A DNA stretch of 64,000 bases, taken from NCBI GenBank assembly GCA_022414725.1, contig CM039462.1, positions 178,804,098 through 178,868,097 on the forward strand, read 5' to 3'. The notes below the pieces were generated by a model. It saw only the letters and a program-made list of their open reading frames with translations. It had not been told where the DNA came from and made no database searches. The position numbers were made by a program, and so were the translations under genes. Shown here piece after piece: positions 9,031 to 33,125 of this stretch. The stretch's first letter is position 1, and every line of letters begins with the position of its first letter. Origin of the DNA: Microglena sp. YARC. Taxonomy: Eukaryota; Chlorophyta; Chlorophyceae; Chlamydomonadales; Chlamydomonadaceae.

Positions 9031-9212
9031 TCAATCATCCTCTGATGCAGTGACCAGCTCAGGGACCACTTTCCCCCCGGTGGCGTTTGACATAACGGCG
9101 ATCAGTTTTTCAGCATTCTGTGATTCCACGTTGATCTCAAGCCTTACTAGCCCTGACTCCAGGTACTCTTCATTCAACCGCTCACAGTTGAACTTATCAA
9201 TTTGGTTGTACA
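9031..9212 (-). CDS. YigZ/IMPACT exon 5 (C-terminal DUF1949-like domain)
   Basis: On the minus strand the exon follows an acceptor CCCTTGCATGCAG and encodes YNQIDKFNCERLNEEYLES, then VRLEINVESQNAEKL and NATGGKVVPEL, with a stop at 9031-9033. The pattern of a tyrosine-led helix, EEYLESG, a V-x-L strand and T-x-G near the end matches the ferredoxin-like C-terminal domain of YigZ proteins. The first codon needs one base from exon 4. The acceptor is copied about twenty times upstream. Confidence 0.82.
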
Positions 9213-9257
9213 CTGCATGCAAGGGTGGAACAACAGTGAGTGCGGGTGAGTGTGTTT

Positions 9258-32100: not shown

Positions 32101-33125
32101 CAAACACACGAACAGAAACAAACACACACACAAGCACACAAGGAAAAACAAACAAACAAACAAACAAACAAACAAACAAACAAACAAACAAACAAACACG
32201 CACACGAACAGAAACAAACACACACACAAGCACACAAGGAAACACAAACAAACAAACAAACAAACAAACAAACAAACAAACAAACAAACAAACACGCACA
32301 CAAACAGAAACAAACACACACACAAGCACACAAGGAAACACAAACAAACAAACAAACAAACAAACAAACAAACAAACAACAAACAAACAAACAAACAAAC
32401 AAACAAACTCACACGCACAGAAACATACACACACACAAACAAACATTTAAAAAAATCTCAAACACACATAAACACACACAAAAACACATTAAAATGCACA
32501 AACACACACACAAAAACACATACACACTCACACAAACAAACATGCACACAGACAGAAACAAACTCACACACACAAAAAACTCTCTCACACACACACATAA
32601 ACACACACACAAACACACATAAACACACACAAACACACAATAAAAACGCACACACACACACACAAGCACACAAGCACACAAGCACACAAGCACACAAAAA
32701 CACACACAAACACTCACACAAACGCACACGCACACACAAACACACACATAAACAAACGCACACAAACACACACACAAGCATAAACAAACAAAAACTCACT
32801 TGCTCTTCTGCACTTCCGTCATCTGCTGCACAGGCTGTGCCAACGTCCAGAAGCCATCCACGCCATCTTCCTCTCCGACCACGTCTCCATCCTTGCTGGC
32901 TCCAACCTTAGCGGCATATCCACGGTACCGTACTGGGTACCGCCCGCTGTACTCCAGGTACCCCCCGTACCCAGGGTGTTCAGTACGCCCACTAGACCCA
33001 CTATGCCGATGGAACCCAGGGCATGCACATTTGGGCCGGTCGTTCGTAAGGACCGCGACCGACGGCGATGGTCGACCATGCAGGAGACGATGGTGGGTGC
33101 CGATGAAGCGTGCAGTGCGGTGCAT
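9031..33125 (-). CDS. YigZ/IMPACT (UPF0029) family protein, five-exon gene
   Basis: Five exons on the minus strand encode, in order, KSK-FTATA, HNCWAYR, SSDDGEPG, TAGRPIL, VTR-IFGGVKLGTGG, LARAYGGAAREAL and a C-terminal DUF1949-like segment. This is the ordered signature of the YigZ/IMPACT family. In animals and yeast, relatives (IMPACT/Yih1) bind GCN1 and restrain GCN2; the bacterial role is unclear. No RWD domain is seen, so it resembles the short YigZ type. Exons: 32800-33125, 29141-29290, 17025-17097, 13756-13897, 9031-9212. Phases fit at exon 1/2 (AA|G) and exon 3/4 (AG|G) but are one base off at 2/3 and 4/5. Exon 2 has two compensating single-base indels. Either the sequence has indel errors or the gene is decaying. 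The start codon is uncertain. Confidence 0.85.
9213..11700 (-). repeat. Acceptor-side array of exon 5, GT-rich
   Basis: About 21 units, each with GTAGACTGCATGGAAGG-type sequence followed by GGAACAACGGTG and a variable (GT)n/(G)n filler. On the minus strand each unit reads TTCCACCCTTCCATGCAG then TCTACAACC. That is the exon 5 splice acceptor plus the first nine exon bases. Units near 9425, 9641 and 10676 carry longer exon pieces. Unit length varies from about 75 to 180 bases because of the microsatellite filler. Confidence 0.88.
10676..10752 (-). pseudogene. Partial copy of YigZ/IMPACT exon 5
   Basis: Preceded by an acceptor (TTCGATGCAG), it encodes YNQIEKFNCERLTEEYLES and stops matching after V-R-L-E. 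It differs from exon 5 at several positions (D to E, N to T, L to Q) but stays in frame over its 77 bases. It has no matching downstream half, so inclusion would truncate or alter the protein. Confidence 0.85.
11720..12435. repeat. About 60-bp tandem array
   Basis: Units of the form CACATTCATACTTTCAGCA...CACACGTTATACACCTGCTCACC are repeated about nine times, alternating two subtypes. They lie inside the exon 4/5 intron. No exon sequence was recognised in the unit. Confidence 0.85.
12440..13749 (-). repeat. Donor-side array of exon 4
   Basis: On the minus strand, at least seven copies contain GCTAAGAAGCAGCTGCTCATG, the GACATCATTG exon end, then the donor GTAAAGGTGGGTGAGG. They lie near 12445-12510, 12525-12580, 13120-13170, 13270-13325, 13480-13520, 13560-13610 and 13640-13720. 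Between them, short units repeat the intron start GTGGGTGAGGTACACG and ACGAAAGGGTGCGATG many times (12590-13080). The copies thus span the 3' end of exon 4 and its donor. Confidence 0.82.
13756..13897 (-). CDS. YigZ/IMPACT exon 4 (signature exon)
   Basis: Begins after the acceptor TTTTCGTAACCAG and encodes IFGGVKLGTGGLARAYGG, then AAREALRLGSR and CAYDII. This is the most conserved block of the family. The codon split AG|G with exon 3 restores VTR-IFGG. The end is uncertain: GTAAAG at 13750-13755 or GTAATG at 13744-13749 could be the donor. The intronic copies end in ATTG|GTAAAG, which would give the phase that exon 5 needs; here that G is missing. Confidence 0.88.
13898..15770 (-). repeat. 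Acceptor-side array of exon 4
   Basis: Around twenty units carry, on the minus strand, CCTCCTTTCCC-type pyrimidine tract, CTAACCAG, and GATTTTTGGTGGTGTCAAG. That is the exon 4 acceptor plus about 20 bases of the exon, followed by CTGGCTAAATATACAGC. A near-identical 97-bp block is repeated about five times at 14720-15200, where the acceptor has become CTAAGGAG. Units elsewhere diverge and vary in length. Confidence 0.88.
15820..16045. repeat. About 75-bp tandem repeat, three copies
   Basis: Three copies of a unit containing TTTGGCACCCTTTCTGC and AATGCACCCTTTCAAGCC. It lies inside the exon 3/4 intron. No exon match was seen. Confidence 0.8.
16140..16325. repeat. Dispersed AT-rich repeat R3
   Basis: Contains ATCATATGATATCATG palindromes and CATCATATGATATGCCGG. 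Related copies occur at 21118-21205 and 57890-58115. Class unknown. Confidence 0.6.
16330..17024 (-). repeat. Donor-side array of exon 3
   Basis: Seven to eight units. On the minus strand each contains CTGTGTTGGTAACCAG (the last 16 bases of exon 3), then the donor GTAGATATAGTGG, and farther on CTAATATTAGTGTTTGG. A variable CA/C-rich filler follows. The real exon end is the last unit, at 17025. Confidence 0.9.
17025..17097 (-). CDS. YigZ/IMPACT exon 3
   Basis: A 73-base exon between the acceptor ATGCTCCTTTACAG and the donor AG|GTAGAT. It encodes TAGRPILTALDGEELQG, then VAVLVT with a split arginine codon. T-A-G-[KR]-P-[IM]-L is a hallmark of the family. The first two bases (GC) need one base from exon 2 to make the glycine codon before T-A-G. 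Confidence 0.9.
17098..20470 (-). repeat. Acceptor-side array of exon 3
   Basis: Several dozen units of about 50-65 bases, dominated by GTTGTAGTGCCATGGTGC and GTGCCAAGGTAACGTGG. On the minus strand they derive from the stretch just upstream of exon 3 (CTTGGCACCATGGCATGC) joined to GGCACTACAAC, which resembles the exon start GCACTGC. A clear intermediate at 17625-17670 still has CTCCTTTACAG followed by GCACTAC. 17670-17900 is a non-repeated insert. Splice-site identity is weaker here than in the other arrays. Confidence 0.7.
20546..20757. mobile_element. Foldback (MITE-like) element
   Basis: Inverted arms of about 65 bases: TAGAGTCACCAGGGTACACG at 20546-20565 and its complement ending at 20757, continuing imperfectly through GGGTTCACTGCATT and AATTTGGGGG. 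The arms enclose a (TTA)n core. No coding capacity. Arm fragments recur at 21950-22025 with CCTCCCAGCTG next to them. No clear target duplication beyond TA. Confidence 0.65.
20950..21126 (+). mobile_element. tRNA-derived SINE copy
   Basis: A truncated tRNA-like head with B-box GGGGTTCGTCTCCCC is followed by the family body (TTGTCAACCGCGATGTAGC, TTGTCCAGTTGAGG) and the tail CCCTTAACACCACGCCCC plus AGGCGTTATCATTACT. It lies within the 12-kb exon 2/3 intron of the minus-strand gene. Confidence 0.75.
21118..21375. repeat. R3 then R1 dispersed repeat copies
   Basis: 21118-21205 carries the R3 block with CATCATATGATATGCCGG. 21213-21370 carries R1 with a (ATGT)n run and CAGTCCAGGGGTAGGCC. No genes. 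Confidence 0.6.
21376..22970. other. Intronic low-complexity and unique sequence
   Basis: Part of the exon 2/3 intron of the minus-strand gene. It holds CCACC-rich stretches (21755-21900), a SINE head (22064-22116), a (CCCA)n run (22155-22200) and unremarkable sequence to 22970. No exon was recognised. Confidence 0.5.
22064..22116 (+). mobile_element. SINE head fragment
   Basis: CCCGTTTCGATGACTGG followed by an A-box CTCAATGGTAGAGC. It is the same head as in the full SINEs, but the B-box and body are missing. Confidence 0.55.
22975..23440. repeat. About 60-bp tandem array with CATGCAGGCATG
   Basis: Seven units of GCAGGCATGTTATTGTATG, TACTGCCATACATACATC and a C-rich CACCCCACCCC filler, plus a diverged unit at 23625-23690. 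On the plus strand each has a pyrimidine-rich tract ending in GCAG, which looks like an acceptor, but no adjoining exon was found. Confidence 0.85.
23441..24861. other. Intronic sequence, no exon seen
   Basis: Contains a SINE-tail-like fragment near 23568-23603, C-rich and CATGCAT-rich stretches, and 24362-24840 with balanced composition. A 71-codon open frame at 24363-24578 shows no family motif. Confidence 0.4.
24862..26720. repeat. CA-rich array with CAGTACAC spacer
   Basis: About 1.9 kb of (CA)n broken at short intervals by CAGTACACAC and CACCAGTACAC. On the minus strand this is (GT)n with ACTGGTGTG. The long cysteine/valine frames here are microsatellite translations. Confidence 0.92.
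26725..29140 (-). repeat. Donor-side array of exon 2
   Basis: About eleven copies read, on the minus strand, GATGACTTCTCCTACCG, then AGCTCTGATGATGGCG, AACCTGGGG and the donor GTAGGTTGG (exon end S-S-D-D-G-E-P-G). They lie near 26890, 27005, 27113, 27385, 27810, 28015, 28205, 28345, 28565 and 28825, with a decayed one near 26725. The copies near 27113 and 28825 extend farther upstream into the HNCWAY region but are mutated. CA- and C-rich filler separates them. The number of G before GTAGG varies, which changes the phase. Confidence 0.9.
29141..29290 (-). CDS. YigZ/IMPACT exon 2 (HNCWAYR, DDGEPG)
   Basis: After the acceptor CTGCCATGGCAG the exon encodes FTATA, then KLIEEASDRRSSHNCWAYR, then RSSDDGEPG, and ends at GG|GTAAGG. 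H-N-C-W-A-Y and S-D-D-G-E-P are family signatures. Between FTATA and KLIEE the frame reads GPSHPRSKPN, but the alternative frame gives WPITSPKQAK, which fits the family. Intronic copies keep an extra C (GCCTGG) there. So two opposite single-base changes are present in this copy. The end phase (2) does not match exon 3 (needs 1); copies with GGGG would match. Confidence 0.85.
29775..29975. repeat. 39-bp tandem repeat
   Basis: About five near-identical copies of TGTACCCTAAAACTTGG plus ATCAAATTGGATATTTG. It lies between two acceptor copies of the exon 2 array. Confidence 0.9.
30326..30520. repeat. Short tandem repeat, GAGTTGTATACAGAT
   Basis: Six copies of GAGTTGTATACAGAT with TTGAGAA-type spacers. 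Confidence 0.85.
30926..32793. repeat. CAGCACC, CA and CAAA repeat tract
   Basis: 30935-31150 is CAGCACCCAGCACC-rich. 31208-32790 is (CA)n with four (CAAA)n blocks at about 32025-32405, separated by a repeated spacer (ACACACAAGCACACAAGG). This forms the 5' part of intron 1 of the minus-strand gene. Degenerate copies of the donor start GTGAGTTTG can be seen near 32405 and 32570. Confidence 0.9.
32800..33125 (-). CDS. YigZ/IMPACT exon 1
   Basis: The frame from ATG at 33123-33125 ends WTLAQPVQQMTEVQKS plus AA|GTGAGT. Family proteins begin with a similar T-L-x-x-P-V...K-K-S-[KR]-F, and the split codon AA|G supplies the lysine before F-T-A-T-A of exon 2. The first 70 or so residues are Arg/His/Gly-rich with no domain. 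They could be an organelle-targeting extension or untranslated leader, and a later start is possible. Confidence 0.72.

Follow-up and report, generated by a model that had tools for sequence, protein, structure and literature searches.

Tandem copies of exon–intron junctions in the introns of the green alga Microglena sp. YARC

Tandem repeats whose units straddle exon–intron boundaries have been described in amphioxus as 'mirage' minisatellites, in Adh3, the globins BflGb6 and BflGb9, troponin C and PGBD5 (PMC3087553, PMC3902484). In these accounts, mirages occur at 5' as well as 3' boundaries, AG and GT are kept in many units, and units measure 10–160 bp; BflGb6 haplotypes carry six versus three units, and BflGb9 has one duplicate (PMC3087553). 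Reverse transcription–polymerase chain reaction (RT-PCR) suggests that these genes are spliced normally, and the mechanism is called unclear (PMC3087553). PGBD5 was added as a mirage with a 108-bp triplication, with Adh and troponin C cited (PMC3902484). Here, we describe a 64-kb stretch of the genome of the green alga Microglena sp. YARC (hereafter, the window), in which introns of an IMPACT/YigZ gene, a UBC-fold (PEX4-like) gene and two ice-binding genes hold copies of their own exon–intron junctions, and we find such copies outside the window as well. The initial annotation of the window knew of no named system of this kind; the amphioxus mirages, as described in PMC3087553, are one.

Two further bodies of work are relevant. 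The Rogers model, named in the available part of PMC3087553, explains intron gain by tandem duplication of segments containing AG/GT. Passages of a study of chlamydomonadalean genomes report long introns in the core-Reinhardtinia (median 198–343 bp) and note tandem repeats (PMC8226300).

Copies of exon–intron junctions in the window and beyond

The junctions of the window were fixed from the reading frame, GT/AG dinucleotides and homologues. IMPACT/YigZ lies on the minus strand in five exons, from which its protein was read. Its exon ends fall at 32800 (exon 1 donor), 29291/29141 (exon 2), 17098/17025 (exon 3), 13898/13750 (exon 4) and 9213 (exon 5 acceptor), leaving introns of 3509, 12043, 3127 and 4537 nt. 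The best named matches of the protein are from Dunaliella salina (50% identity) and Tetrabaena socialis (51%).

Junction words of 16+16 nt, with at most 8 edits allowed, were used to search for copies of all 22 window junctions. This strict test finds one or more copies in the junction's own intron for 8/22 junctions, while ten shuffles per junction gave means of 0–0.1 and a maximum of 1. The same words found no copies in the other introns and none in reverse complement. No copies were found at the IMPACT exon 1 donor, at the exon 1 donor, exon 3 donor and exon 4 acceptor of the UBC-fold gene, and at six of the eight ice-binding junctions.

A more lenient test, with pattern lengths fitted by hand and applied to 12 chosen junctions only, counts the units of each array. 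The IMPACT donors of exons 2, 3 and 4 have 8, 7 and 5 copies, and the acceptors of exons 2, 3, 4 and 5 have 4, 2, 19 and 21; one of the two at the exon 3 acceptor is distant and probably due to chance. In the UBC-fold gene, the exon 2 donor has 1 copy, the exon 3 acceptor 7 and the exon 2 acceptor 17, about 15 of them in an array (shuffle mean 2.7, maximum 6). The exon 2 donors of the ice-binding genes IBP2 and IBP1 have 5 and 2. Counts at the IBP1 exon 2 donor and the IMPACT exon 3 acceptor stay within the shuffle maximum of 2; one copy at the latter is also recovered by the strict test and by the exact-junction test described below, and none at the former by either. With lenient copies included, 12/22 window junctions are affected: 7/8 in IMPACT, 3/6 in the UBC-fold gene, 1/4 in IBP1 and 1/4 in IBP2.

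These counts bear out the donor arrays that the initial annotation had placed at IMPACT exons 2, 3 and 4 and the acceptor arrays at exons 2, 3, 4 and 5 (exon 3 weakly), and its report of the same pattern in the PEX4-like and ice-binding genes. Its statement that every placed IMPACT junction is copied holds for the seven junctions it named and fails at the exon 1 donor. Self-alignment of introns against flanking exons, which it had proposed, also agrees: when 15 exon pieces were aligned to each of the 11 introns of the window, 20 matches reached E ≤ 1e-3, all 20 in the exon's own adjacent intron and on the proper side, with none antisense and none between genes. The exons and arrays are as follows.

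9031–9212, minus strand: IMPACT exon 5, C-terminal part, with the stop at 9031 (from reading frame and homologues)
9213–11690, minus strand: array spanning the exon 5 acceptor, 21 copies of intron end + AG + mostly 5–10 nt of exon
11903–12419, minus strand: 53-bp tandem array within intron 4, 9.8 copies, no exon sequence matched
12456–13749, minus strand: array spanning the exon 4 donor, 5 lenient copies with up to 103 nt of exon, the nearest at 85% identity
13750–13897, minus strand: IMPACT exon 4
13898–15680, minus strand: array spanning the exon 4 acceptor, 19 copies, unit 84–97 bp with 20–41 nt of exon
16337–17024, minus strand: array spanning the exon 3 donor, 7 copies with about 16 nt of exon
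17025–17097, minus strand: IMPACT exon 3
17098–20458, minus strand: exon 3 acceptor side, one clear spanning copy about 528 nt off
26872–29140, minus strand: array spanning the exon 2 donor, 8 copies with up to 86 nt of exon
29141–29290, minus strand: IMPACT exon 2, with HNCWAYR and SSDDGEPG (from homologues)
29291–30915, minus strand: copies spanning the exon 2 acceptor, 4 lenient and 1 strict
32800–32920, minus strand: IMPACT exon 1, 3' end; donor without copies
36705–38453, plus strand: ice-binding gene IBP1, start approximate; about 2 weak copies of its exon 2 donor at 37817–37985
48956–49366, plus strand: array of the IBP2 exon 2 donor, 5 copies
55999–56028, plus strand: UBC-fold (PEX4-like) gene, exon 1
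59204–59930, plus strand: copies of the UBC exon 2 acceptor, 45-bp unit, about 15 copies, 780–1504 nt upstream of the true acceptor
60709–60804, plus strand: UBC exon 2
60805–60915, plus strand: copy of the UBC exon 2 donor with 74 nt of exon at 89%
62580–63670, plus strand: array of the UBC exon 3 acceptor, 7 copies with up to 72 nt of exon
63671–63799, plus strand: UBC exon 3

One copy in the IMPACT exon 5 acceptor array holds 77 nt of exon at 95% identity, and the exon 3 acceptor copy sits in a long 64–81 bp array of intron-end-like sequence. IBP1 and IBP2, compared as paralogues only, have exons 2 that are 92% identical and carry about 2 versus 5 extra copies in intron 2.

Outside the window, the genome (568,105,699 bp on 2390 contigs, contig 1 being 195 Mb) was sampled through UBC-fold genes only. 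A family search gave 51 exon matches. Twenty loci of ten kb were fetched and 32 exons tested, with four intronless genes as a control; the remaining matches were not fetched or lie inside the window. With GT and AG set by eye, the 32 exons yielded 27 acceptors and 26 donors of fixed position, and the others were dropped. A copy was called spanning if it held at least 8 nt on each side of the border. By this rule, 29/53 exact GT–AG junctions have spanning copies, at 15/20 loci, and the same rule applied to the window gives 8/22. In total, there are 170 spanning copies at 37/75 junctions (20/38 acceptors and 17/37 donors).

Within 2.5 kb, copies lie beside 18/32 exons at the 20 loci. Their polarity is uniform: upstream copies match the 5' half of the exon (48/48) and downstream copies the 3' half (48/48), and no antisense copies of the 32 exons were found. 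The 1.5-kb flanks of the four intronless UBC genes hold no copies, and swapping flanks between exons (a random quarter of pairs) gave matches in 5 of 239 tests, and three of the 5 join close paralogues. Loci with copies are present on 6/6 contigs sampled. At locus L015, ten copies of a 72-bp unit could be aligned, and CAG|GTAAAT is intact in all of them; across copies, identity ranges from 69 to 100%, most being diverged. Nine more exons chosen by eye (6 UBC-fold, 3 from neighbouring genes) were kept out of the counts; copies were found in 3, all UBC. An apparent whole-exon duplicate at locus L028 was rejected, an acceptor copy having been mistaken for the exon. The initial annotation's suggestion of a genome-wide process thus extends to other loci, within the one gene family sampled.

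Where duplication falls and what may explain it

We consider it likely that the arrays are 'mirage' minisatellites at genome scale, generated by local tandem duplication that takes no account of splice sites, with coding acting as the filter. Short stretches would duplicate in tandem at a high rate, wherever splice sites happen to be. Duplications within exons would mostly be eliminated, since they break the protein, and those within introns or across a single border would be tolerated. The exon-proximal splice site would stay in use and the extra border would be absorbed by the intron, so that repeated rounds would give longer introns, made for the most part of sequence from their own boundaries and interior and strewn with neutral decoy splice sites. 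Within this scheme, we infer that the exon-proximal site is used, that decoys are tolerated and that the duplications arise by slippage or unequal exchange. Splice-blind duplication is favoured by flat coverage at junctions, the drop of coverage in exons, copies free of constraint, and AG and GT that are still kept; with protein-breaking events removed, it also fits the absence of whole-exon copies and the link with intron length.

We measured local duplication as coverage, the share of complex 32-nt segments with a near-copy within 700 nt, and profiled it around 78 junctions, taking UBC exon ends as approximate and using placeholder intron lengths where the neighbouring exon was not known. 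Coverage is 0.44 across junctions and 0.43 in the first 50 nt of the intron, 0.50–0.52 at 50–1200 nt and 0.64 further in; going into exons, it is 0.39, 0.30, 0.18 and 0.22. Because coverage is 0.44 across junctions and 0.50–0.64 deeper in introns, the junction is no hotspot of duplication, and the intron interior is covered at least as well. Random 130-nt genomic segments have local copies in 21/48 cases, of mixed polarity (antisense in 3/48), as a splice-blind process predicts. The initial annotation had introns lengthening specifically from their ends; this is not supported by the coverage profile, and exon-free arrays inside introns, such as that at 11903–12419, and the local copies in random segments also speak against it.

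Estimated spacing in 31 exon-sided arrays is 72–477 nt (median 158), mostly about 70–260 nt. None of these arrays contains a whole-exon copy, where about 4.4 would be expected under random breakpoints (P 0.002 under a simple random-breakpoint model), and we therefore rejected tandem exon duplication, in which a whole exon is copied with both its splice sites. At exact junctions, the longest exon overhang per acceptor array varies widely (9–107 nt), and the units share no fixed edge; an apparent clustering of overhangs near 59 nt was an effect of inexact exon starts and was discarded. Microhomology at breakpoints was also considered. Among 48 two-copy exact duplications, ends are shared beyond chance, but many of these lie in larger arrays and the result was not used.

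Over 111 copies, exon-versus-copy mismatches at codon positions 1, 2 and 3 are 8.2, 7.8 and 13.5%; the corresponding values in seven pairs of paralogue exons are 8.8, 3.6 and 46.2%. Of 83 indels in exonic parts of the copies, 78 have lengths that are not divisible by three. Since positions 1 and 2 differ about equally and most indels break the frame, the exonic parts of copies are free of coding constraint; the excess at position 3 would fit silent changes of the exon itself. At exact junctions, AG is kept in about 94% of copies and GT in about 90%, and the dozens of decoy splice sites that the initial annotation had noted are indeed left in place. Neighbouring exon columns are kept at 89% on the AG side and 87% on the GT side, and intron columns at 79% and 85%. 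The differences from exon columns give P 0.055 for AG and 0.30 for GT, both computed from rounded values. With retention so near that of neighbouring columns, decoys are not purged and are at most weakly kept.

Copies go with longer introns, as the initial annotation implied: junction copies correlate with intron length (Spearman 0.63, P 0.0015, 22 introns), and junctions with copies number 4/16 in introns below 1 kb, 0/6 at 1–2 kb and 18/22 at 2 kb or more, counts that pool the lenient rule in the window with an exon-only rule at the other loci. Random genomic stretches show coverage in 608/1831 complex segments (0.33; 16 stretches of 3 kb). Shuffles of these stretches, with low-complexity segments left out, give 41/1886; a separate composition-keeping shuffle that included such segments gave 61/375.

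Several observations weigh against splice-blind duplication. If position played no part at all, non-intron DNA should be just as full of arrays, but introns are denser: in the window, coverage is 1033/1693 (0.61) in introns versus 200/1690 (0.12) in intergenic and transposable-element DNA, and in five genes it is 240/429 (0.56) upstream of the last exon and 122/600 (0.20) after the stop codon. The intron side is the denser in 5/5 of these genes (including L011, L022 and L024), and overall, the density of local tandem duplication in introns is about three- to fivefold that of non-intron DNA. Three introns of 1–2 kb have copies at neither end. AG, at 94%, stands above its neighbouring exon columns at 89% (P 0.055) and intron columns at 79%, and there may be weak retention of decoys. 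Finally, of the three exons of neighbouring non-UBC genes tested (two that we take to be RFC-like and one PCNA-like), none has copies. The intron excess may reflect transposon insertions between genes that dilute the arrays, or duplication linked to transcription. It is conceivable, though we would lean against it, that duplication favours transcribed introns through a link with transcription or splicing and continually rebuilds them out of their own boundaries and interior, and that introns throughout the genome grow mostly by self-copying and not by transposon insertion.

The same excess speaks for a junction-targeted process, tied to transcription or splicing, that would duplicate boundaries and extend introns from each end. 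Array density in introns is far above that in non-intron DNA, and in IMPACT, the stretches from each junction to its farthest copy by the lenient fit make up 10556 of 23216 intron nt. Against targeting stand a coverage of 0.44 at junctions versus about 0.52 in the intron interior, intron-internal arrays without exon sequence, the local copies in 21/48 random segments, and overhangs too broad (9–107 nt) for a fixed unit edge. We regard it as unlikely. Selection that keeps the copies as functional decoys, to delay or regulate splicing or to set intron length, might account for the retention of AG and GT, with AG slightly above its neighbours, and for an array kept in both paralogous IBP introns. 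That retention is nevertheless close to the level in adjacent exon columns, codon positions 1 and 2 mutate about equally, indels break the frame, and copy number and overhang vary between junctions, making such selection quite improbable.

An artefact of assembly or sequencing, through collapse or expansion of repeats, is harder still to maintain. The frame break between IMPACT exons 2 and 3 and the G-run that varies among copies, described below, could be homopolymer error, but the copies are mostly diverged (69–100% identity) and their changes fit drift, the reading frames of neighbouring exons stay open for as many as 351 nt, and loci with copies occur on all six contigs sampled. Introner elements or other splice-site-carrying transposons inserted beside junctions, although introns of some green algae carry introners, can be all but dismissed, as arrays match their own exon with no between-gene matches in the window, flank swaps matched in only 5/239 tests (three between close paralogues, two unexplained) and no exon copies are antisense.

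Other features of the window and of the sampled loci

By the exon-proximal GT, IMPACT exon 2 (29141) joins exon 3 (17098) out of frame, and intronic copies of the exon 2 donor vary in G-run length at this join. The cause could be a sequencing error, an unusual splice site or damage to the gene. IMPACT introns also hold very long CA/GT-type arrays, at 24867–26650, 31215–32776 and 9261–9632. The initial annotation's PEX4 assignment is supported as to the UBC fold by exon 3, which matches PF00179 at 52.8 bits.

The top match of the ice-binding protein is a EukProt protein, 85% identical, and Chlamydomonas sp. ICE-MDV proteins (52–57%) are among the next. At 49515–53718, an insertion resembling a retrotransposon, whose direct terminal repeats of 234 nt are 98.7% identical, interrupts exon 3 of IBP2, and about 140 nt of the exon are missing between the matches that flank it. 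Because of this insertion and the missing exon sequence, IBP2 looks like a broken gene. A Copia-like element, its reading frames recognised by eye, occupies 2219–7581; its terminal repeats align over 254 columns at 94% identity. Rfam and ARAGORN searches of the window gave no matches.

On contig 5 of the genome (G000), at least four intronless UBC genes (L001–L004) lie within about 80 kb, at approximately 40.78–40.86 Mb. Their flanks are nearly free of arrays (8/489 segments). The cluster might consist of retrocopies or be an integrated foreign region; as it is perhaps an unusual insertion, we did not rely on its flanks as an intergenic baseline.

Comparison with known systems

Self-copies flank roughly half of the junctions tested, and these junctions are presumably spliced correctly, which makes this alga a natural test of splice-site choice: the spliceosome would have to pick one site where as many as about 20 look alike. 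Decoy copies may also be taken for exon ends when genes are predicted in such genomes.

Introner elements, like the arrays here, are intron-associated repeats in algae. They are dispersed between genes, whereas these arrays match their own junction. The Rogers model shares with our observations a within-gene tandem duplication that touches splice signals; it gains introns, whereas here existing introns are enlarged and no new intron is shown. Tandem repeats are common to the satellite DNA and long introns of chlamydomonadalean genomes and to the loci described here, where many introns exceed 2 kb. In the parts of the algal genome literature available to us, including work on Haematococcus, repeats or intron lengths are discussed and copies of boundaries were not found, and among the matches listed from the open-licence PubMed Central literature, no title concerned boundary-spanning arrays in algae or genome-wide.

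The closest likeness is to the amphioxus mirages. In both, the repeats are tandem and direct with units of minisatellite size, the unit spans the boundary with an exon part and an intron part (170 copies at 37/75 junctions in the alga), donors and acceptors are both affected (17/37 and 20/38), and AG and GT are kept in many units (about 94% and 90%). Many algal spacings, at 72–477 nt, exceed the 10–160 bp of the amphioxus units. Normal splicing is suggested by RT-PCR in amphioxus and presumed in the alga. The main difference is one of scale: a handful of genes in amphioxus, against 37/75 exact junctions, up to about 20 units and many introns of about 1–12 kb here. The mirage phenomenon is probably seen here, far enlarged, in a green alga, where what was a curiosity of a few amphioxus genes becomes a possible bulk force of intron growth.

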